From: an uncultured Gammaproteobacteria bacterium
GTDB taxonomy: Bacteria > Pseudomonadota > Gammaproteobacteria > GCA-001735895
Length of the DNA: 41,451 nucleotides
Reading direction: 5' to 3'
Assembly: GCA_937894085.1 (NCBI GenBank)
Contig: CALCSG010000504.1
Coordinates: 1-41,451 of the forward strand
The stretch's first letter is position 1, and the number at the start of each line of letters is the position of its first letter. Shown piece by piece: positions 12,201-33,147 of this stretch. The position numbers and the translations under genes were made by a program. A model generated the notes under the pieces. That model saw only the letters and a list, made by a program, of their open reading frames with translations, did not search any database and was not told the origin of the DNA.

Positions 12201-12738
12201 TCGCTCTGATTCCAGCCTGAAAATTCAATATCGGCAACCCGCTATTGTTAGCGGCATCCCGGGTGCGGACTATGGCTTGAATACGGCTATTGTTTATAGC
12301 ACGGTCAATCTGGCAATCAATGAACTCGATAATATCGCTGACTTGATGGATGTACCCGACAATGTCTGCGTGACCCGCTTGACCCCGCACTCGGGCGCAG
12401 ATACTGCCGAATCCGTAGATTGTGCAGTAGCTATACCTGAAGCCGACCTGATTCCCGATCCGCTTGAAACTGACACGGATAGCTTTCCTGATCCCGACCC
12501 TGATACAGATACCGGTCCATCCGATCCCGATCCAGCTCCTGACCCTGATCCCGTTTTAGATTCAGATGCAGGTCAGGATCCGGCACCGGAAACCGAAAAC
12601 GGGACTGGTGGTGCCGGCCTGCAACTACTGTTGTGGTCAGCATTACTACTGGTTCTGAAAATCTGTATGAAAACTTTACCACGAAGCTTGCGAATGGCGG
12701 TCACAAAAATTCCCTCAAAAAAGGAGTTGCTGAGATGA
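9238..12738 (+). CDS. Large exported beta-rich protein with acidic Asp-Pro linker and C-terminal hydrophobic anchor
   Basis: About 1166 residues from ATG 9238, chosen because AAAGGAG sits right before it; the frame also opens at 9202. A signal peptide (VVSISLSPPIYALS) starts an exported protein of no family I recognise. The second half (about 600-1060) has loose repeats such as KIDADGEPLWSSS and DGSLYLTGYSG that resemble the blades of secreted beta-propellers. Residues about 1070-1115 are an Asp/Pro/Glu-rich linker. It ends at GTGGAGLQ followed by about 18 hydrophobic residues and a basic tail, which recalls GlyGly-CTERM (rhombosortase) sorting signals, although the tail after the anchor is unusually long. 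Its TGA overlaps the next ATG (ATGA), so translation of the two is probably coupled. First gene of the 9.2-17.4 kb operon. Confidence 0.85.
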   Translation: MKESTAVGKTVTAFSLVVSISLSPPIYALSGCPDANVSDEFTLGNFSLVSTTILSDNQLEVVLQADAVNTQAGSFSSLSVTPRFHERSDLNAVIIQPMTFPPVSPFSTIQGDLANQHLTVKVDADKLDELMLRLSTGIIPVDVTANENVVLEPGVVVQGWEPWMDAFALLPGGQEPAYSPGTSVRFGMINPASTPVSLPAGFVSASNTNCSISPAAGEQWILNDDNSFEWENIPFAWRNLKINSLERIPLVDGTDDCSSSIGATIDAEIPANPLTELVESGSFCSGEEHYIDPPVFTTRTSSFEGDDIPAEVSDSNTQPVHFNDVLIGNLKISGQLQGYVLKPGIELRIRPFAGSDESSVKIRTSIDNKVNMAVTLTAQGQASILDQEIEIGALCFPLPPLNFGPLQIPWTLRLAHHIGVNAELSAGVTTGIEKQFSAGYALEWDDGVFDSEHWGESPPVEFTPPRLPHGLAATASVWSRFTTDLELGSIYPACETGAGPYLDMKLAVGLSMDPANNPRWALGHEAEITAGLEFNIMGIDIGSTVDAELVSFPGSEELTPELDNSTPSERISLNRSAAKQVDTAEDGEKQRWLIAVENKDADYPGGGFERTAVSATHDGGAAVVSYAAITGDNPLLRFDALGQLVWQQEYSNGRQPIAVTALDDDSLAVAGQPSWLAKHSADGTLSWSQDYDFTDASGGSAVCYIEDMTRFDYGTNGSGYLLIGWMHFGVNKPCAARVDDNGIVLWAKTYQREIPLDSVEGYLRGKLYAVNATSDDGFVFAGYEALLTPAAISRPLVMKIDADGEPLWSSSIDLPNVYRSGEFTDISEAEDGSLYLTGYSGAIVTQDGAMLVSHLAADGQSADSALFFPGEVEAENYLTSLAGYSPLDKGLAIESVARGVVITGVLNAHEYGIGEEAWVLRLNDRLGVEWLFSIDGPGDETINAITYAGDGLFASGVSKSLIPIEDGSDNKNSLILAKLPFEGRPGNIRSDSSLKIQYRQPAIVSGIPGADYGLNTAIVYSTVNLAINELDNIADLMDVPDNVCVTRLTPHSGADTAESVDCAVAIPEADLIPDPLETDTDSFPDPDPDTDTGPSDPDPAPDPDPVLDSDAGQDPAPETENGTGGAGLQLLLWSALLLVLKICMKTLPRSLRMAVTKIPSKKELLR

Positions 12739-13871
12739 ATAAATCGAGCGGGATTTTATTTCTGAGTTTACTGGTATCGGCCTGTGGTGGTGGCTCTACA
12801 GAAGACGAACCACCTGTACTGCCAGCATTAACCATCGATAGCCCTGCCCAAAGCGAGGGTGATAGCGGCACAACACAACTGAGCTTCACAGTAAGCCTGG
12901 ATAAGATAGATGATGCTAACGTTAGCATAGACTATGTCACGGCCGATGATAGCGCCAGCGCAGTCAGTGACTATGTCGCACTAAGTGGAAGCCTGACAAT
13001 TCCGGCAGGAGATACTTCGGGCACTATCACTGTCACCATAAACGGCGATACCGAAGTCGAAAGTGATGAATCCTTCATGCTCAATCTTAGCAATATCACT
13101 TCTAATGCTACGCTCGCCACATCAAACGCCACGGCTACTATTTTGAATGATGATGTGGTTGTCATACCACCCACTCCGTCATCTTCGGCACTTAATGATA
13201 CGGGAGTAACCACTTGCAGTGATGATTTTGTTAACGGCCTTGATTGCAATAGTGCTAGCGATGGAACGGATCAGTTTTCCGGGCAGGATGCCGAGCACGG
13301 ACGTGACCTCACCAATAACGCCAGTAGCGATGGCCACGCCGGATTTGTGTTCAGCAAACTCGATAACAACGGCACCCCGCTCGCTGACCAGAGTGTCGAT
13401 TATGCCACCACGCCCTGGCGCTGCGTGCTAGATTTAATTAGCGGTCTGACCTGGGAAGTGAAAGCCGACGACGATGGCTTGCAGGACAAAGACTGGACCT
13501 ACAGCTGGCACAATACCAGCGGGATCAACGATGGTGGCAATACCGGACTCAGTAACGGGGGGCTATGTGTCGATACCAGTAACTGTGATACCCAAAAACT
13601 AATGCTTGCGGTGAATAACGCTCAGCTCTGCGGATTTGACGACTGGCGCCTGCCAACGCGCCGCGAACTGTTATCGATCATGCATTTTGGCGCGAGCGTT
13701 GCGCCTTATATCGACAGCAACTATTTTGTAAATCATGCAGCATTGCCCTACTGGAGTAGCTCACCGGCCACTGACAACAACGTTGCCTATGTAAATTATT
13801 CGGATATTGGCGCGCATACCTCGAGTCGCTCACAGGCCTTTGCCGTGCGCCTGGTACGAGGTGGGGACTGA
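12735..13871 (+). CDS. Lipoprotein with Calx-beta and DUF1566 (Lcl C-terminal-like) domains
   Basis: About 378 residues. The frame is open from 12633, but ATG 12735 is chosen because it has AAGGAG upstream, an ATGA overlap with the preceding stop, and then gives a classic lipoprotein signal, FLSLLVSAC, with Cys at about 18. A low-complexity GGGS tether follows. One Calx-beta domain spans about 35-145 (SEGDSGTTQLSFTVSLD, then GDTEVESDESFMLNL), a calcium-binding fold of surface proteins. The C-terminal half is a DUF1566 module (LISGLTWEVKADDDG, CGFDDWRLPTRRELLSI, YWSSSPA, VRLVRGGD). DUF1566 includes the C-terminal domain of the Legionella adhesin Lcl, so a surface-binding role is plausible. The module is closely related to the end of the next gene product. 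Confidence 0.88.
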   Translation: MNKSSGILFLSLLVSACGGGSTEDEPPVLPALTIDSPAQSEGDSGTTQLSFTVSLDKIDDANVSIDYVTADDSASAVSDYVALSGSLTIPAGDTSGTITVTINGDTEVESDESFMLNLSNITSNATLATSNATATILNDDVVVIPPTPSSSALNDTGVTTCSDDFVNGLDCNSASDGTDQFSGQDAEHGRDLTNNASSDGHAGFVFSKLDNNGTPLADQSVDYATTPWRCVLDLISGLTWEVKADDDGLQDKDWTYSWHNTSGINDGGNTGLSNGGLCVDTSNCDTQKLMLAVNNAQLCGFDDWRLPTRRELLSIMHFGASVAPYIDSNYFVNHAALPYWSSSPATDNNVAYVNYSDIGAHTSSRSQAFAVRLVRGGD

Positions 13872-13873
13872 TC

Positions 13874-16792
13874 ATGAAAACAGCCACGGTGAATTTCATC
13901 AAAAATGGGGATTTGGTCGAGCCTTATTGGGGACAGCTCCCCCAGATACTACTCATATGCCTTTTGATGTTTACCGGCACCTATCCGGCCGACGCAGCTC
14001 AACCGGCACTGGAAGTCTCGGGGTTTTTCGAAATGGACGGCACTACCAGTCTGGATCCTGATCCTGAACACGGGGAATTTTATTTTGGTCCGAATGGAAA
14101 TCCTGATGCCGATTATGAGTTGCCACTTGATGTAACTGCCTCGCCCTGGGAACTTCCTGTTAAGCCTGATTCAGGCATGTGGGTGTACGCCAATAATGAG
14201 GGTCGTGTGCGAACCTATGCTACTACCGGTGCCTATGGAATTGATGATTCTGGTACTGGTTTCGCGTATTCCCAGTTCGGATATGCAAAGATCTTCTGGA
14301 ATGGATATTACATTCGAAGCGATAGCAGCGATCCCAAGTCTACTGTCAATCTAAGCCTGCTGGAGCTCTTTGCAGATAAGCCAGGGCCTGATTTTTTATT
14401 TAACAGGGCCGGTATTCTGACTCCGCCATTTGCAAAGATGAATATCGCGATTACTCTTTGTGGCTACCTTCACAAGGGCGTAGGCGGCGGTGATTTTGAC
14501 TGCGTAAAACTGTATCAACATGAATCACACATAGCAGGAACGTTCGATCACGTGGATTTCCCAATTCAGGTAGTTACTGCTAAGACGTCAAATTTACTAG
14601 GAGATGTCCCCTTAATCAAAACGACAGGAAGCCCAGTGTCCCTGTCGCTCGAACACCCTGTTACAGAAGTGAAAACCGGGTTGGCGGATACCTGGGATAT
14701 TGCTATCGGGGAACATTATAAGATTATATTTGAGCTCGAAGTTGAAGTTGGCCAGGACGCTGACGAAAACATTGCCAAGGCATTATTGGGTGATCCTTTG
14801 GATGCGGATTTAGGTGGCATAACCCTCAATACGACCCACACACGGGTACCCAGCAATATCCACATTTGTAAGCGTGCACTGGACCCCTACCGTTTTGAAG
14901 TGCACAACGATGGCACCGTCACCGATGCGAACACTGGCCTGATGTGGCAACGCTGTCCACTGAACTACACCCTTAACGAGAATGGTACGCCTGCAGATCT
15001 CGGTGATGATCTGTGTACAGTAAATACAATCGTTAGCTTTGATTGGCAATCGGCGCTGCAAAAAGCGTCAAGTGACAGTTTGGCGACCTACACGGATTGG
15101 CAGTTACCCAACGTCAAGCAATTGGAATCTCTGGTCGATTTGAATTGTTATGCGCCAACGATTGATACGCAGTCATTTCCCGCCACGCCAGCCGTCCCTT
15201 TCTGGACATCCACACCGGCAGCGCGCGGTGACCAGGCCTGGCAAGTCAGTTTCGCCAGCGGCGATGTCAGTCCTGACCGCAAGACCGAAACAAACCGTGT
15301 TCGACTGGTGCGTAATAGCGGCACAATCCCCGTGCTACCCACGCCGGCTTTAGTCGCCGGTAATGCGAGTCTCGTTGAAGGCGACGCTGGCAGCAGCCTG
15401 ATGAACTTCAGGATTGAACTATCAAGCCCCTCTAGTTCTGATGTGAGTGTCGAATACGAAACTCAGGAATTTAGCGCGAGCGGGATCGACGATTTTGTCA
15501 ATGCAACAGGCACCTTAACCATCCCCGCTGGAGAACAGGCCGGCACTATAAGCGTAACGGTGAATGGCGATACTTTTGCAGAAGGTAACGAAACTTTCTG
15601 GCTATTTTTGAGTGAGCCTTCGGCGGGTGTTTATCTTGCCAGGGCCGCCTCAATCGGTACTATTTTTGATGATGAACCGACTGTCAGTGTCGCAGCTGCC
15701 ATGCCGCAACTGGTCGAAGGTAATAATACTGGTACGCAGACTTTTGAGTTTGTTGTCAGCCTCGACAAACCGGCCGTAGGCGCGGTCAATGTTGACTACA
15801 CCACGGTTGATAACACAGCTACTGGTGGCGTTGATTATGATGCGGTCAGTGGCACATTGAACTTCAACCCGGGTGAAGACTCGGTATCGATCATGATCGT
15901 TATCCATGGTGACACTCAGCCTGAAAACGACGAAATTTTTGACCTCGTCATCAGCAATGTGATCGGTGGCGCCAGCCTCGACATCAACCCCGCCAGCAGC
16001 AAGGCAATGGCTATCATCATCAATGACGACGCCGCCTCGACTTATCAGGCACTCAATGATAGCGGTGTCACCTATTGTGCCAATGCCGCCGCGACAGGAT
16101 TATCCTGCCCGCAATCTGGGTTTCCACAACAGGATGGCGAGTCTGGTCGCGACGCAACCGCCAACGACGACAGTGACGGAATAGCAGGCTTTTCTTTTAC
16201 CAAACTGGACAGTAATGGCGTGCCGCTGGTCAATCAGGCCGCGATTTATCAATATACTTATTTTCCTGCCGGTCCGGCATACGACATCTGGGACTGTGTG
16301 CAGGACCAGGTGACCGGGTTAGCCTGGGAGATAAAAACCGATGTGATTGCAGATCTGCGTAATTATGACTGGACCTACACCTGGTATAACAGCACAGGCC
16401 TGAATGATGGTGGTAATGCGGGAACAGAAAATGGCGGCGCCTGCGTCGATAGCACGAATTGTGACACGGAGAAATATATTGCAGCCATCAATGCGGCCAG
16501 CCTGTGCGGTTTCAACGACTGGCGCCTGCCGACAGTGGATGAGTTATATACGCTCGCGGTAAGCGCTGCACCCAGTGTCTCAACCAGTCGCGGTCTCGAT
16601 AGCAATTACTTCCCGCATAACTACGCAGTCAATGGCAGCCTGTCACAGGGATATACCTACTGGAGCGCGAACACCGCCGCCAACGTCGCGTTATCGAGCT
16701 GGGCCCTGGAGTTCCAGGCGCCAGATCCGCAAAACATCCAGATTGATAAAGCATCACCGACACCTGTCCGTTTAGTGCGTGGCGGTTCGTGA
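13874..16792 (+). CDS. Large exported protein with two DUF1566 and two Calx-beta domains
   Basis: 972 residues, starting two bases after the previous stop. A long signal peptide (hydrophobic LPQILLICLLMFTGTYPADA) is followed by a unique N-terminal region to about residue 310. Domain order is then DUF1566 number 1 (about 325-490, TGLMWQRCP ... DWQLPNVKQLESLVD ... WTSTPA), Calx-beta 1 (about 495-600), Calx-beta 2 (about 605-720, DYTTVDNTATGGVDYDAVSG) and DUF1566 number 2 (about 735-972, ending VRLVRGGS). DUF1566 number 2 starts with ALNDSGVTYC and QDGESGRDA, matching ALNDTGVTTC and QDAEHGRDL in the preceding lipoprotein. The two genes therefore share a duplicated module. No membrane anchor is visible at the C-terminus; it may be released or held by its partners. 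Confidence 0.88.
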   Translation: MKTATVNFIKNGDLVEPYWGQLPQILLICLLMFTGTYPADAAQPALEVSGFFEMDGTTSLDPDPEHGEFYFGPNGNPDADYELPLDVTASPWELPVKPDSGMWVYANNEGRVRTYATTGAYGIDDSGTGFAYSQFGYAKIFWNGYYIRSDSSDPKSTVNLSLLELFADKPGPDFLFNRAGILTPPFAKMNIAITLCGYLHKGVGGGDFDCVKLYQHESHIAGTFDHVDFPIQVVTAKTSNLLGDVPLIKTTGSPVSLSLEHPVTEVKTGLADTWDIAIGEHYKIIFELEVEVGQDADENIAKALLGDPLDADLGGITLNTTHTRVPSNIHICKRALDPYRFEVHNDGTVTDANTGLMWQRCPLNYTLNENGTPADLGDDLCTVNTIVSFDWQSALQKASSDSLATYTDWQLPNVKQLESLVDLNCYAPTIDTQSFPATPAVPFWTSTPAARGDQAWQVSFASGDVSPDRKTETNRVRLVRNSGTIPVLPTPALVAGNASLVEGDAGSSLMNFRIELSSPSSSDVSVEYETQEFSASGIDDFVNATGTLTIPAGEQAGTISVTVNGDTFAEGNETFWLFLSEPSAGVYLARAASIGTIFDDEPTVSVAAAMPQLVEGNNTGTQTFEFVVSLDKPAVGAVNVDYTTVDNTATGGVDYDAVSGTLNFNPGEDSVSIMIVIHGDTQPENDEIFDLVISNVIGGASLDINPASSKAMAIIINDDAASTYQALNDSGVTYCANAAATGLSCPQSGFPQQDGESGRDATANDDSDGIAGFSFTKLDSNGVPLVNQAAIYQYTYFPAGPAYDIWDCVQDQVTGLAWEIKTDVIADLRNYDWTYTWYNSTGLNDGGNAGTENGGACVDSTNCDTEKYIAAINAASLCGFNDWRLPTVDELYTLAVSAAPSVSTSRGLDSNYFPHNYAVNGSLSQGYTYWSANTAANVALSSWALEFQAPDPQNIQIDKASPTPVRLVRGGS

Positions 16793-16819
16793 ATTCAGTT
16801 TTAGCTCGGGAGAAAAACA

Positions 16820-17374
16820 ATGATTAAATCGAAGGGAATGATTTTGATGCTAACTCTGGCACCCTCAAGCCTGATGGCGCAAGAGTGCAACAATGCGGTT
16901 AATGCAACAACGCCCGACTATCGCTTTGCCGACAATGGCGATGGTACGGTTAGTGATACCCGCACCGGTCTGCGCTGGCAACGATGTCCGGTGGGTTACA
17001 CACTGAATGACAACAGCACCTCGTTTAACAGTGATGATAGCTGCGAATTACAAACGGACACCACCTTCAACTGGCAGGGCGCATTGTTATCTGCAGCCGA
17101 CTTAAACAGCGCGGGAGGTTTTGCTGGATTTAGCGACTGGCGTGTACCCAATATCAAGGAACTGGCATCCATTGTTGAATTTAAATGCCATAGTCCAGCA
17201 ATCAATCCTAACCTGTTTCCCGATACGGCTTCTGATCACTTCTGGTCGTCTACCACTTATGGTACTACCACTACGGCTGCGACAATGCATTTTGAATATG
17301 GCGAAAATAGATGGTCATATAAAGATTTAGCAGGCTTTGAACATTATGTGCGTTTACTGCGAGATGGAAGTTAG
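16820..17374 (+). CDS. Exported single-domain DUF1566 protein
   Basis: 184 residues. A signal peptide (MILMLTLAPSSLMAQE) precedes one complete DUF1566/Lcl-type domain: DNGDGTVSDTRTGLRWQRCP, then DWRVPNIKELASIVEFKC, FWSSTTYG and the terminal YVRLLRDGS. The domain is most like the first DUF1566 domain of the 972-residue protein (both have TGL.WQRCP..YTLN and WQ.AL), so it probably arose by duplication. GGGAGA lies just before the ATG and the gap from the previous stop is 27 bases. It is the last gene of the operon. Confidence 0.88.
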   Translation: MIKSKGMILMLTLAPSSLMAQECNNAVNATTPDYRFADNGDGTVSDTRTGLRWQRCPVGYTLNDNSTSFNSDDSCELQTDTTFNWQGALLSAADLNSAGGFAGFSDWRVPNIKELASIVEFKCHSPAINPNLFPDTASDHFWSSTTYGTTTTAATMHFEYGENRWSYKDLAGFEHYVRLLRDGS

Positions 17375-27530: not shown

Positions 27531-29240
27531 ATGAACAAGCATTCTCTAGATTTTTCAAATATAGAGTCCGATGCAATTCAAATTGGGCCATGGACATTTT
27601 TAGCCCACGAATTTCAACTTCAGAAAGAGGATGAAATCGTCAAACTTGAGCCACGAGTTGCCCAACTGCTGTCATGCCTCGCGGCGAATGCGGGTCAAAC
27701 GGTCAGGCGAGAAACCCTGATGGAGGAAGTCTGGCCGGGGATGATCGTTGGTGATGAAGCCCTGTCGAACGCCGTCAAAAAATTACGTAATGCCTTCAAC
27801 GATGACTTCCAGAACCCGCGAATTATAGATACCATCCCGAAAGCCGGTTATCGCCTGATCGCCGAGGTAAAACAGCTCAATCCTGTACAAGGGCCAGATA
27901 ATAACGAACTTAACTCTCACCTCGGCCAGAATGATCGTCGCAACTGGCTAGCTTTCGGCGCAATAACCATCACCTTATTAATATTGTCGCTGTGGTTTTT
28001 GGTCGGTACTGAAAAACAGGAGTTATTCCCTTCGTCCAGGCCGGTCGACCCGGCAGTAAAACCTTCGATTGTCGTATTACCGTTTGATAACCTTGGTCAG
28101 GATCCGGATCAGGAATACTTTACCGACGGTGTTACCGACGACATAATCACGCTACTGGCTAAAAATCCTGAACTGGTCGTTATCGCTAGGGAATCGTCCT
28201 TTTTTTATAAAAAAACAACCCGGGATATTCACAGCATTGCTAAAAAACTGAATGTAGCAAATATCCTGAATGGCAGTATTCGGCGAATCGACAATCAACT
28301 GGTTATAAACGCGCAACTGGTCAATGCTGCTTCAGGAACCCACATATGGGCCGAGCAATATCTACTTCCTGCGAATAATATCTTACAGATCGAAGATAAT
28401 ATCGCACATAGGATTACCGCTTCGTTGTTAAACAGGAATCCGGATGATCACTCGCACTCTCCCATTTCGGTACCTGACAAGCGTGTTCTGGCTCATGATT
28501 ACCTGCAGCTGGGCCGCTATCGTTTCTATCAGTTTGCCAGTAAAGCAGAAATCGACAATGCACAAAAACTGTTTCGAGGTGCCATTGAACTGGATCCTGA
28601 ATATGCACTGGCCTATGCGCTACTCGGTTGGTCCTACGACTTTGAAGCGATCAACGGCTGGGTTGATGATCGACTTTCGTCACTGCTGAAAGGGGAGCAA
28701 ATGGCGACCAGGGCTATCAAACTACAACCCGATCTGGCACTTTCTTATTTCGTGCGGGGCCTTTCCTACCGCGAACAGGGCAAGTACACCGAGGCACTCG
28801 AAGAAGCTCAACGCTTGCTCGAATACAATCCGAACGATGCAAACGGCCTCGTTTTATATGCCACCTTGCTGTTTCATGCCGGCCGGCCCAGACTTGGCCT
28901 GGAGTGGCTCAGGGAAGCCATTAAGATAAACCCCCATCACCCATTCAATTATCAGTTCCACCTTGGACAGGCATATTTTTTGCTGCATCAGTACCAGCAA
29001 GCTTTGGAAGCATTCCAGTCAGGTCTTGATTCCAATCCCGGTTCAGAACAATTACATATCTGGATGGCTGCCACCTACGCACTGATGGGAGACATCGAGA
29101 ACGCCAGCTGGCAGGCAGAGCAGGTTATTCTATCCAACCCGGAATTTACAGTCTCACGCATGGAAAAATCGTTTCCTCTCAACAAGCCGGCTGAATTGAA
29201 AAAATTTACTGACGGCTTACATCTTGCAGGCCTGCACTGA
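27531..29240 (+). CDS. CadC/ToxR-type membrane regulator: winged helix, TM segment, TolB-like domain and TPRs
   Basis: 569 residues. An N-terminal OmpR-type winged-helix domain (about 15-115) has EPRVAQLLSCLAANAGQTVR and the typical end NPRIIDTIPKAGYRLIAEV. One membrane segment (about 139-158, AFGAITITLLILSLWFLVG) follows. Next comes the domain often found in these proteins (about 180-290: PSIVVLPFDNLGQDPDQEYF, GSIRRIDNQLVINAQLV, GTHIWAEQY), then about six TPR units (about 310-560). DNA binding should be cytoplasmic and the sensor part periplasmic, as in ToxR and CadC. The strong TTCAGG palindrome at its own promoter suggests autoregulation. The nearby small exported protein (26457-26777), separated by the IS remnant, could be a target or a ligand. 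Confidence 0.9.
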   Translation: MNKHSLDFSNIESDAIQIGPWTFLAHEFQLQKEDEIVKLEPRVAQLLSCLAANAGQTVRRETLMEEVWPGMIVGDEALSNAVKKLRNAFNDDFQNPRIIDTIPKAGYRLIAEVKQLNPVQGPDNNELNSHLGQNDRRNWLAFGAITITLLILSLWFLVGTEKQELFPSSRPVDPAVKPSIVVLPFDNLGQDPDQEYFTDGVTDDIITLLAKNPELVVIARESSFFYKKTTRDIHSIAKKLNVANILNGSIRRIDNQLVINAQLVNAASGTHIWAEQYLLPANNILQIEDNIAHRITASLLNRNPDDHSHSPISVPDKRVLAHDYLQLGRYRFYQFASKAEIDNAQKLFRGAIELDPEYALAYALLGWSYDFEAINGWVDDRLSSLLKGEQMATRAIKLQPDLALSYFVRGLSYREQGKYTEALEEAQRLLEYNPNDANGLVLYATLLFHAGRPRLGLEWLREAIKINPHHPFNYQFHLGQAYFLLHQYQQALEAFQSGLDSNPGSEQLHIWMAATYALMGDIENASWQAEQVILSNPEFTVSRMEKSFPLNKPAELKKFTDGLHLAGLH

Positions 29241-29919: not shown

Positions 29920-32900
29920 ATGAGGCCTCAAGGAAAGATGGGCAAATTATTATTGACCGGTGTAAATCATACCAGGGCAGTCATTACCTTATTGGTATTA
30001 TTGACGGTGATTGCCCTCTACTTTCTACCTGGACTGCGCCTTGAAATTACCGCCGAAGGCATGATGGTTAAGGATGACCCTGCAAGACTATTCTACGAGC
30101 GCACTCTGAATTCTTTCGGCTCTGACAATGTCACCATCGTCTATCTTGAGGACGATAATCTGTTTGATGCGCACAAGCTAGGCCTTATTAAAGAGGCGGT
30201 TAACAAGCTCAACAAGATGGTTCTGGTGGAAAAAACCGATAGCCTGTTCAGTATTCGTTATTTGCGCACGATCGATGACTTTACCTATACATCACCATAT
30301 CTTGATTCCATACCGCAGGATAGTGAACAGGCGGCAGTCTTGAAACAGGCCGCCTTAATCAACCCGTTGATCAAAAAGAACCTGTTGTCTGAAGATGGAC
30401 ACGTTATGGCGATCAATGTCCACTTTGCTACAAAGCGTTATTTTAGAGGTTTCGATGAGGAAGTTTCAAGCCAGTTAGAGCAAATTCTCCAACCACTTAA
30501 AGCGGAACTTGGCCGGGTATTCTTCATGGGCGATCCTTATGTAAGAAACGGTATCTCGCAGCGTATTCATGACGATCAGAAGATGATTTTACCTGGAGCT
30601 ATCTTACTCCTTATCATAGCGTTGGCGATCAGTCTGCGACGCATGCAAGCAGCGCTTATTCCCTTACTCACGGCTGGACTCAGCGTGATCTGGATTCTGG
30701 GTCTGATGGCAGCACTCGATATCCCGGTGAATATCATGAGTTCAGTTATCCCTGCGCTTCTGATCATCATTGGCTCAACCGAAGATATCCACCTGCTGTC
30801 AGAGTATCTGAATAGTTATCGTCAGGGTGTTAGTCGAGACCAGGCAATAAAATTAATGTCGGATAATATGGGCATGGCGGTCATACTCACCTTCGTCACC
30901 ACTTATGTTGGCTTCCTGTCAATCGCTCTTAACGACCTAGAATTGATAAAACAATTCGGCATTTTGACCTCTACCGGACTGCTGATAAATTTCTTGATAA
31001 CAGTACTGCTGGTACCTGCTAGTTTAAAACTTTGTGGACGTTTCAGTTCAACTCAAAAAACCATGGACGGAGATCATCGGTATGCCAGGCTTGCCAGCCT
31101 GCTATTAATCATGACCGACAGGTATCGCTATCAGGTCATGGCGGTGTTGCTACTTTCAGTTCTGCTCTGGCTTTATAATGCTCTCGACCTGCGTTTAAAT
31201 AATAATGTGATGGATTATTTTGACGACAATTCTACAATTATCCAACAATCCAGTCTGTTGCATCAGAACCTGTCCGGTATTCAAACCTTATCACTGGTTT
31301 TAACGGGTACATCGGGTACTTTTTTACAGGTGCCATACATTAAAGAATTGTCGTCGATACAGGAACATATCGATGATATGGGTTATTTTGACAAGTCATT
31401 CTCTTTTGCCGATTTCATTGGCGTGGTGCACAGCGGACTGGATGGTGAAAGGCCGGGTGATATTTACTTACCAGACGAGAATGAAATAGTGGAAGGTTAT
31501 ATGGCTTTTCTGGGTCACACGGTGGCCCAGAATTTTGTGTCTTCTGACTATAGTCAGACCAAAATCATCATACGTCATAACATCAGCGATTCTGATAAAC
31601 TTAATCGTGCGGTTGAGGCGATTTATCTATATGTCAATAACACAGTAGAACCAGGGATCGATGTCCAGGTGACCGGCGAAAGTTATCTTAACAGTCGGGC
31701 GATCGATTACATGGTGCGTGGACAGGCGCAATCACTGGTATTGATGTTAGTGGTTATTTTTGTGCTGATGTCGGTTCTTTTCGTAAATAGTCGGGCAGGA
31801 ATCATTGCCGTCATCGCCAACCTGTTCCCTATCATCATTCTATTTGGTGTGATGGGTTTTTTCGGTATCCCGCTGAATACCGGTACCGCTATGGTAGCCA
31901 CTATATCACTGGGCATCTGCGTAGATCATTCGATGCATTTCATGGTGCGCTATCAACGCATGACAAAAATTACCGTATCACGCTTTGATGCACTCGATCA
32001 TACAGTCCGTTTGGAATCGATGCCGATCATGGCAACCGCCCTGTCACTAGCGGTCGGTTTCGCCGCGTTAACGGTGTCAAATTTTCCACCTTTAGCCAAG
32101 TTTGGGCAGTTAAGCGCGCTTGTCATGCTGCTCGCCCTGATCAGTACTTTTATCATCATTCCACTTTTCCTGCGTTATGTTAGTCTGACTTCCGTGTGGG
32201 ACATGCTGAGCCTGGACCTCAAACGTGATGTGGTAAAGACCAGTCCTTTGTTTGCAGACATGTCTAACTGGCAGGCTCGTAAGATAGTTACACTGAGTGA
32301 AATTCTGGTCTACCGGCAGGATGAAGCCATCCTGATGCAGGACGATTCGGTTGAGCACCTGTTTATGCTGCTAAGCGGTAGTGTTGAAATCTGGCGTAGA
32401 GAGATTGACGGCTCCACCTATATGCTCGAAGGTATAGAGCCGGGTTGCGTTTTTGGTGCTCTGTCAGGGTTGAAACAAAAACAATGTCATGCCGATATAG
32501 TGGCCATCATACCTTCAACCATCATGCGATTACGTGCCGAGTCTATTCATAATATCGGCCGGGGCTCCCCCCGTCTGGCCGTAAAATTGCTGCAGAATCT
32601 GAACAATATTGCCAACAACCTGATCAATTTGTCAGCCTCTACACCCACACCGTTTCGTGACCAGCGCACAGGTGCTTATAACGCTACGTTGTTCCTGGAA
32701 ATGTTGAGTCACAATATTGATAGGGCTAATCGGTATGATAACCCCTTGAGCATAATTGTGATCGACATTGATGGGCTTCAGCGTGAAACCAGGCCAAATG
32801 ACAATATTCAGTTTCAGAAAGTACAGGACCTTATCGCAGACATTATCCTACAGCACATTCGGAAACCGGACATTTTTGGCCTGTGGCCGGATAGCAGTTA

Positions 32901-33147
32901 CTGGATAGCCCTGACCAATACAGATAAGACAGGTGCTGAAACAATTTGCAGTCGACTGAGTCTTGACTTGTCTCAAAATCCACTATTAAAGCAGGAAAAT
33001 TCAAGGGTTAACCTGATAAAAACAGAACTTAAAGATGGAGAGTTTATCGATGGCTTCCTCATACGAATAAACGACCTGAGGGGGACAGCGCAGGAAAATC
33101 CTACGGTCAAACTGGAGTCTTTAAAAACGCTGCCAGAACAAGATTAA
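29920..33147 (+). CDS. RND/MMPL-type exporter fused to a cyclic-nucleotide-binding domain and a degenerate GGDEF domain
   Basis: 1075 residues. Residues 18-37 are the first TM helix; a large extracytoplasmic loop, a TM cluster (about 220-370), another TM (about 400-420), a second loop (about 425-600) and a second TM cluster (about 600-757) give the duplicated RND/sterol-sensing layout. It is most like single-chain MMPL lipid or hopanoid exporters. Residues about 773-906 form a CRP-type nucleotide-binding domain (VEHLFMLLSGSVEIWRRE, GIEPGCVFGALSGL). Residues about 912-1046 match a GGDEF fold: DQRTGAYNATLFLEMLSHNI and PLSIIVIDIDGLQ fit, but the active-site motif is replaced by PDSSYW. It is therefore unlikely to make cyclic di-GMP and probably only senses or binds. 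Start: ATG 29920 or 29938; neither has an ideal ribosome-binding site. Confidence 0.9.
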   Translation: MRPQGKMGKLLLTGVNHTRAVITLLVLLTVIALYFLPGLRLEITAEGMMVKDDPARLFYERTLNSFGSDNVTIVYLEDDNLFDAHKLGLIKEAVNKLNKMVLVEKTDSLFSIRYLRTIDDFTYTSPYLDSIPQDSEQAAVLKQAALINPLIKKNLLSEDGHVMAINVHFATKRYFRGFDEEVSSQLEQILQPLKAELGRVFFMGDPYVRNGISQRIHDDQKMILPGAILLLIIALAISLRRMQAALIPLLTAGLSVIWILGLMAALDIPVNIMSSVIPALLIIIGSTEDIHLLSEYLNSYRQGVSRDQAIKLMSDNMGMAVILTFVTTYVGFLSIALNDLELIKQFGILTSTGLLINFLITVLLVPASLKLCGRFSSTQKTMDGDHRYARLASLLLIMTDRYRYQVMAVLLLSVLLWLYNALDLRLNNNVMDYFDDNSTIIQQSSLLHQNLSGIQTLSLVLTGTSGTFLQVPYIKELSSIQEHIDDMGYFDKSFSFADFIGVVHSGLDGERPGDIYLPDENEIVEGYMAFLGHTVAQNFVSSDYSQTKIIIRHNISDSDKLNRAVEAIYLYVNNTVEPGIDVQVTGESYLNSRAIDYMVRGQAQSLVLMLVVIFVLMSVLFVNSRAGIIAVIANLFPIIILFGVMGFFGIPLNTGTAMVATISLGICVDHSMHFMVRYQRMTKITVSRFDALDHTVRLESMPIMATALSLAVGFAALTVSNFPPLAKFGQLSALVMLLALISTFIIIPLFLRYVSLTSVWDMLSLDLKRDVVKTSPLFADMSNWQARKIVTLSEILVYRQDEAILMQDDSVEHLFMLLSGSVEIWRREIDGSTYMLEGIEPGCVFGALSGLKQKQCHADIVAIIPSTIMRLRAESIHNIGRGSPRLAVKLLQNLNNIANNLINLSASTPTPFRDQRTGAYNATLFLEMLSHNIDRANRYDNPLSIIVIDIDGLQRETRPNDNIQFQKVQDLIADIILQHIRKPDIFGLWPDSSYWIALTNTDKTGAETICSRLSLDLSQNPLLKQENSRVNLIKTELKDGEFIDGFLIRINDLRGTAQENPTVKLESLKTLPEQD

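Follow-up and report, generated by a model that had tools for sequence, protein, structure and literature searches.

The window analysed here, a stretch of 41,451 nucleotides from an uncultured gammaproteobacterium, carries on its forward strand a gene that joins an RND/MMPL exporter, a cyclic-nucleotide-binding domain (CNBD) and a degenerate GGDEF domain in one chain. Its features are listed below, with residues numbered from the ATG at 29920 as residue 1.

29920-33147, forward strand: open reading frame of the RND-CNBD-GGDEF fusion, a single uninterrupted frame of 1075 amino acids
29938-33147, forward strand: the whole gene from the likelier start, M7 (1069 amino acids, against 1075 from 29920)
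29938-32190, forward strand: RND/MMPL exporter, residues 7-757, with 12 transmembrane (TM) helices and two periplasmic loops
30769-30795, forward strand: TM4 motif IGSTEDIHL with D289 at the relay position; G285-S-T-E-D289 and H291 are kept in 72/72 relatives
31912-31938, forward strand: TM10 motif GICVDHSMH with D669 at the relay position; D669 and H673 are kept in 72/72
32176-32244, forward strand: linker from TM12 to the CNBD, residues 753-775, with conserved W760-D761 (W 0.93, D 0.92 among CNBD members)
32245-32559, forward strand: CRP-type CNBD, residues 776-880 (Pfam cNMP_binding; VIA-align Z 18.3 to GlxR-cAMP)
32443-32493, forward strand: degenerate phosphate-binding cassette GCVFGALSGLKQKQCHA, residues 842-858, with Glu replaced by A847 (32458) and Arg by C856 (32485)
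32656-33099, forward strand: degenerate GGDEF domain, residues 913-1060 (Pfam GGDEF 3e-7 when searched alone; VIA-align Z 18.6 to DgcR and 18.2-18.3 to PleD)
32860-32871, forward strand: primary I-site motif R981-K-P-D984, placed five residues ahead of the lost signature and aligned to the RxxD of solved diguanylate cyclases
32887-32901, forward strand: PDSSY in place of GG(D/E)EF, residues 990-994, from sequence and alignment
32953-32955, forward strand: R1012, which completes the I-site triad 31 residues after R981, with the spacing of PleD R359/R390 and SgmT R763/R794

Translation probably begins at the ATG at 29938 (M7) rather than at 29920, because AAGGAAAG lies immediately 5' of this codon and the alignments of nearly all relatives open at residue 7. 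At least 19 proteins, encoded in independent assemblies, have the same three-domain order, which puts the fusion well outside what chance would produce and rules out an assembly or frameshift artefact. The gene stands alone, with a CadC-like TPR regulator on one side and a convergent FG-GAP protein on the other, and comparison of the loci found no neighbour common to the window gene and either of two relatives, L049 and L050. The window neighbours consequently gave no result as a guide to the substrate. The regulator (Trans_reg_C), which has a TM segment and TPR repeats, occupies 27531-29240 on the same strand, upstream of the RND gene across a gap of 680 bases. Elsewhere in the window, at 12633-17374, three adjacent open reading frames with Calx-beta-like sequence and repeated WRLP/DWRLP segments (DUF1566-like, by eye) possibly form a surface protein cluster.

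The membrane part matches Pfam MMPL (PF03176; 1.8e-39, 136 bits) in two stretches that cover both halves, with a further match to the Sterol-sensing family (2.5e-12). For the whole chain, an AlphaFold model built on 48 relatives (mean pLDDT 87.5) shows 12 TM helices and two periplasmic domains followed by the CNBD and then the GGDEF fold, and the best Foldseek matches of the membrane part are MmpL4/MmpL5, NPC1L1, HpnN and MmpL3. With the MmpL/HpnN/NPC1 branch (HAE3 family, TIGR00921) the protein shares the 12 TM helices, the two periplasmic domains, a sterol-sensing-like TM region and an Asp at the relay position of both TM4 and TM10; its TIGR00921 score is 212.6, below the cut-off of 351.9, and unlike it, the solved relatives listed all lack a CNBD or GGDEF tail. 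With D289 and D669 invariant in all 72 relatives, the pump itself appears to be functional. The W760-D761 linker that follows TM12 is a candidate coupling element and is missing from related Thiodiazotropha proteins that have no tail.

The structure of the C-terminal tail was predicted separately, as a monomer. Pfam cNMP_binding (PF00027) covers residues 797-879 (1.2e-14, 54.5 bits against a cut-off of 27.5), and VIA-align superposes residues 1-144 of the tail model on the CNBDs of cAMP receptors (Z 18.3, rmsd 2.1, 137 residues). Pfam GGDEF (PF00990) covers residues 913-1025 with 25.3 bits against a cut-off of 23.8, rising to 30.8 bits (3e-7) in a search with the domain by itself, and residues 141-288 of the tail model superpose on GGDEF structures (Z 18.6, rmsd 2.3, 144 residues). 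The earlier note had proposed, from motifs, that an RND exporter, a CRP-type CNBD and a GGDEF-like domain share one chain; Pfam matches above the curated cut-offs, AlphaFold and VIA-align agree on this, and the significant cNMP_binding and GGDEF matches of the tail leave the proposal unrefuted.

The CNBD of the window protein lacks two pocket residues, the ribose-binding Glu (now A847) and the phosphate-binding Arg (now C856), which are present in 83% and 94%, respectively, of the 72 CNBD members surveyed. Four relatives, L042, L049, L050 and L053, likewise lack one or both. Because both key positions are replaced, gating of the window protein by cAMP or cGMP appears unlikely. In a group of Desulfobacterota RND-CNBD proteins (L104, L113, L108 and L110) the cassette Glu is replaced by Tyr or Pro with the Arg retained, possibly denoting a different ligand or an independent loss.

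The GGDEF domain, for its part, has lost catalysis. PDSSY stands at the signature, as the earlier note had recognised, and the N, D, K and G-H columns of the A-site, which serve metal and GTP, are lost, ruling out an active diguanylate cyclase. The c-di-GMP inhibitory site (I-site) is, by its residues, intact: R981, D984 and R1012 are all present, and the distance between the two arginines is that of R359 and R390, the I-site arginines of PleD, 31 residues apart. A comparable state is known from SgmT and PopA, c-di-GMP receptors with a degenerate A-site and an intact I-site, and in SgmT, where R763 and R794 are 31 residues apart, the R763A exchange abolishes c-di-GMP binding (PMC3509222). As in these proteins, the GGDEF signature of the window domain is lost while RxxD and a second Arg 31 residues on are retained (PMC3509222); they are, however, a hybrid histidine kinase and a response regulator, whereas the window domain sits on a transporter and its receptor role is predicted. 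The possibility of c-di-GMP control, raised in the earlier note as one of two options, is thereby strengthened. c-di-GMP itself is surely present in the host, whose genome has 80 GGDEF matches.

Conservation across the fused proteins points to the same site. No fused member has an intact signature, and of 37 columns that are strongly conserved across a reference set of twelve active GGDEF domains, only D914, G918, R981, D984 and R1012 are kept in 12/12 fused proteins outside a group termed clade B. Three of these five columns form the I-site triad (p ~0.001 for a random five of the 37), against a retention of just 0-17% in those 12 for the catalytic columns and 42% for the first G of GGDEF. 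Both the linker and the triad are conserved despite an overall tail identity of ~25-30%. Clade B was delimited on a tree built from only the RND part (support 100), which avoids circularity; within it R981 is left in 25% and R1012 in 0%. The triad is present in 10/10 tree members outside clade B and in 0/8 readable members within it (Fisher p 2e-5, uncorrected for relatedness). Every clade B member has an intact cNMP pocket, and none of the family members examined lacks both the pocket and the I-site. Since each loss corresponds to one clade, this complementary pattern is suggestive and does not amount to a statistical result. A set of stand-alone CNBD-GGDEF proteins of 330-364 amino acids (L137, L138, L140, L145 and L148) has GGEEF and the I-site intact, and a CNBD that keeps the Glu without the cassette Arg; such proteins are a possible source of the fused tail.

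The family extends well beyond the window. Members, full-length or fragmentary, occur in all seven genomes searched from the same genus, in one of the same family and in several more distant ones. A scan of genome contigs yielded 80 loci, most of which encode RND-CNBD proteins of about 900-930 amino acids, from Gammaproteobacteria, Desulfobacterota, Verrucomicrobiota, Kiritimatiellota, Spirochaetota, Planctomycetota, Deferribacterota and others; among these loci the GGDEF extension is confined to a gammaproteobacterial subset. On the RND-part tree the window protein groups with L049, L050, L053 and Thiodiazotropha proteins (support 100). In five Thiodiazotropha relatives, 46-49% identical over the RND part, the entire tail is gone, and no family tail gene lies adjacent to their RND gene. 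Wherever relatives do have a tail, it is fused, so that a tail encoded as a separate gene is ruled out for them. Three paralogs are present in the host genome and differ in their sensor states: the window protein has lost the pocket and kept the I-site, C167 has kept both, and C548+C231, one gene split across two contigs and joined by an exact overlap of 55 bases, has kept the pocket and lost the I-site. In the same genome, CNBD matches number 28 and class III cyclases four.

Several loci depart from the common pattern. A second RND-CNBD subfamily, ~23% identical and without the GSTEDIH motif, is found at L040:767-6903 and L041:5309-8110. Multiple stops and changes of frame break up the member L043/L117 (G005:C208), whose pieces are still conserved; it represents a pseudogene or assembly errors. 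In L053:6428-9544, of the window clade, the GGDEF part gives way to unrelated sequence close to the end of the contig, in a frameshift-like manner.

Gene neighbourhoods provide a link with cyclic nucleotides for the family at large. A class III cyclase gene lies within ~8 kb of 13/53 loci, whereas the cyclase counts of the genomes concerned would predict 0.62; L093 was excluded, its match having disappeared with catalytic-domain seeds. Seven of the 13 cyclases are immediate neighbours, four of which overlap the RND gene (L051, L052, L054 and L056), and about seven independent cases remain when related loci are counted once. Among 20 control loci with related RND genes lacking a CNBD, no class III cyclase was found nearby. 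Cyclases accompany 12/61 pocket-intact and 0/14 pocket-broken members, a difference not significant alone (p 0.11). No other evidence speaks as strongly as this linkage for a family CNBD that reads cAMP or cGMP; with cassettes intact in most members, it makes such control likely for the wider RND-CNBD family. The cAMP/cGMP gating suggested in the earlier note is accordingly likely for pocket-intact relatives, and improbable for the protein for which it was proposed.

At the four overlapping loci, which belong to tubeworm endosymbionts and relatives, the gene of a membrane class III cyclase (MASE6-like with Guanylate_cyc) extends over the beginning of an RND-CNBD gene that encodes an intact pocket. 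L040 and L116 (L116:7992-14216) adjoin a cyclase-AAA gene of more than 1100 amino acids, with TPR repeats in that of L040.

Outside Gammaproteobacteria the usual operon consists of a LolA_like gene (PF17131, ~270 amino acids), the RND-CNBD gene in second place and a gene for a protein of ~490 amino acids, here c2, for which Pfam and NCBIfam searches returned zero matches. With examples in L084-L115 and elsewhere (for instance L086:7050-12223), the operon looks like a so far undescribed system for exporting envelope lipids. Other genes nearby encode MlaD together with an ABC auxiliary lipoprotein, a protein resembling N-acyl amino acid synthases, and CDP-diglyceride-synthase-like and acyltransferase/AMP-ligase proteins; taken together, these neighbourhoods point to lipid export. 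In the host, LolA-like genes adjoin other RND genes (C270, C561) and not the window gene.

The reading favoured here, with a probability of about 0.5, is that the window protein is an exporter whose tail acts as a c-di-GMP receptor. The membrane part would be an exporter like MmpL and HpnN, driven by protons, whose substrate is a hydrophobic compound of the envelope and probably a lipid; the cytoplasmic tail would act as a second-messenger receptor. The ancestral form would have consisted of RND and CNBD, probably under the control of cAMP or cGMP; in a gammaproteobacterial branch the GGDEF domain would have been gained, with catalysis lost early and the I-site kept in most lineages. The window CNBD, its nucleotide pocket lost, would probably now serve as a structural relay. 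Binding of c-di-GMP at R981, D984 and R1012 may alter the packing of the GGDEF domain on the CNBD, and this change could pass through the W760-D761 linker after TM12 to affect, in either direction, pump activity, oligomeric state or position.

Some observations weigh against a c-di-GMP receptor. The tail is dispensable in the five Thiodiazotropha proteins of the window's own clade and could be decaying, D984 is kept in clade B too and may be structural, and RxxD goes back to the ancestral GGDEF domain, so that inertia could partly account for its retention, though the surrounding residues have decayed. Furthermore, the GGDEF domain persists in clade B copies without an I-site, and must therefore have some other, perhaps structural, role there.

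It is rather unlikely that the whole tail is a relic, both domains decaying and the exporter constitutive or otherwise controlled. Both domains are indeed degenerate, the nearest relatives (the tail-less Thiodiazotropha) do without them, and the pocket residues of close relatives differ in every way; however, the tail is in frame and confidently folded in the model, its triad and linker stand out as conserved against the low overall identity, and it is kept with the triad in L042, an ortholog from another species of the genus, and in the more distant L049 and L050. A similarly low probability attaches to a tail that senses otherwise, through a non-nucleotide effector on the CNBD or GTP/(p)ppGpp on the GGDEF domain, or that is only an oligomerisation or protein-docking module. 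Foldseek matches of the tail that include DNR, NtcA and CprK, all of them CRP-fold proteins that bind non-nucleotide effectors, would allow this, as would the survival of clade B GGDEF domains without an I-site or A-site, but no conserved alternative pocket was found and the A-site residues for GTP are lost. Direct gating of the pump by cAMP or cGMP bound to the window CNBD is very improbable: the CNBD fold is intact, most family members have a canonical cassette, cyclases are enriched near family loci, with four overlapping or touching the RND gene, and the host has four class III cyclases, but the residues for both the cyclic phosphate and the ribose are lost, one or both are lost in L049, L050, L042 and L053 as well, no pocket-broken member has a cyclase nearby and the host cyclases all lie on contigs other than the window's.

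The c-di-GMP receptor reading assembles parts that are known from other systems. In cyclic-nucleotide-gated channels a cytoplasmic CNBD follows the membrane domain. MFS-CNBD fusions likewise carry a cytoplasmic CNBD after a membrane domain (PMC10710835), but these and the channels belong outside the RND superfamily, the fusions to another transporter superfamily, and have no GGDEF domain. PelD also controls membrane export via an RxxD-type site without cyclase activity (PMC2170427); it differs in being a separate subunit for Pel polysaccharide that has neither an RND pump nor a CNBD, and its second Arg is 35 residues off. Bd1971 combines a cAMP-sensing CNBD with an EAL phosphodiesterase, a c-di-GMP-related domain, in one chain (PMC6717892), but is a soluble enzyme, whereas the output of the window protein is a pump and both of its tail domains are altered. 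A 2023 review of post-translational transporter control describes CNBD fusions for MFS, and RND transporters only with small protein partners (PMC10710835). The earlier note had considered such control undescribed for this superfamily, and the literature searched, in which subscription papers are thinly covered and absence is no proof, yielded no published RND or MMPL transporter with a CNBD or control of this kind. As far as could be tested, what is new is the combination, with the pump as direct output, and the apparent exchange of sensors.

Control of RND exporters is generally attributed to transcription, to partner proteins or to small proteins. For the family as a whole, it can be put forward tentatively, with less assurance than the receptor role of the window tail, that these proteins form an undescribed, widespread group of RND lipid-type exporters switched by second messengers: ancestrally by cAMP or cGMP from a neighbouring cyclase, and in the window's branch by c-di-GMP through a dead GGDEF domain, with the host paralogs responding to c-di-GMP only, to both, or to the cyclic mononucleotide only. 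The family holds its own natural experiments, among them three paralogs of differing sensor state in one genome, pairs that have lost one site and kept the other, tail-less relatives and pumps whose genes overlap that of a cyclase. If the proposal is true, envelope lipid export would be tied directly to cAMP/cGMP or c-di-GMP, bypassing transcription.
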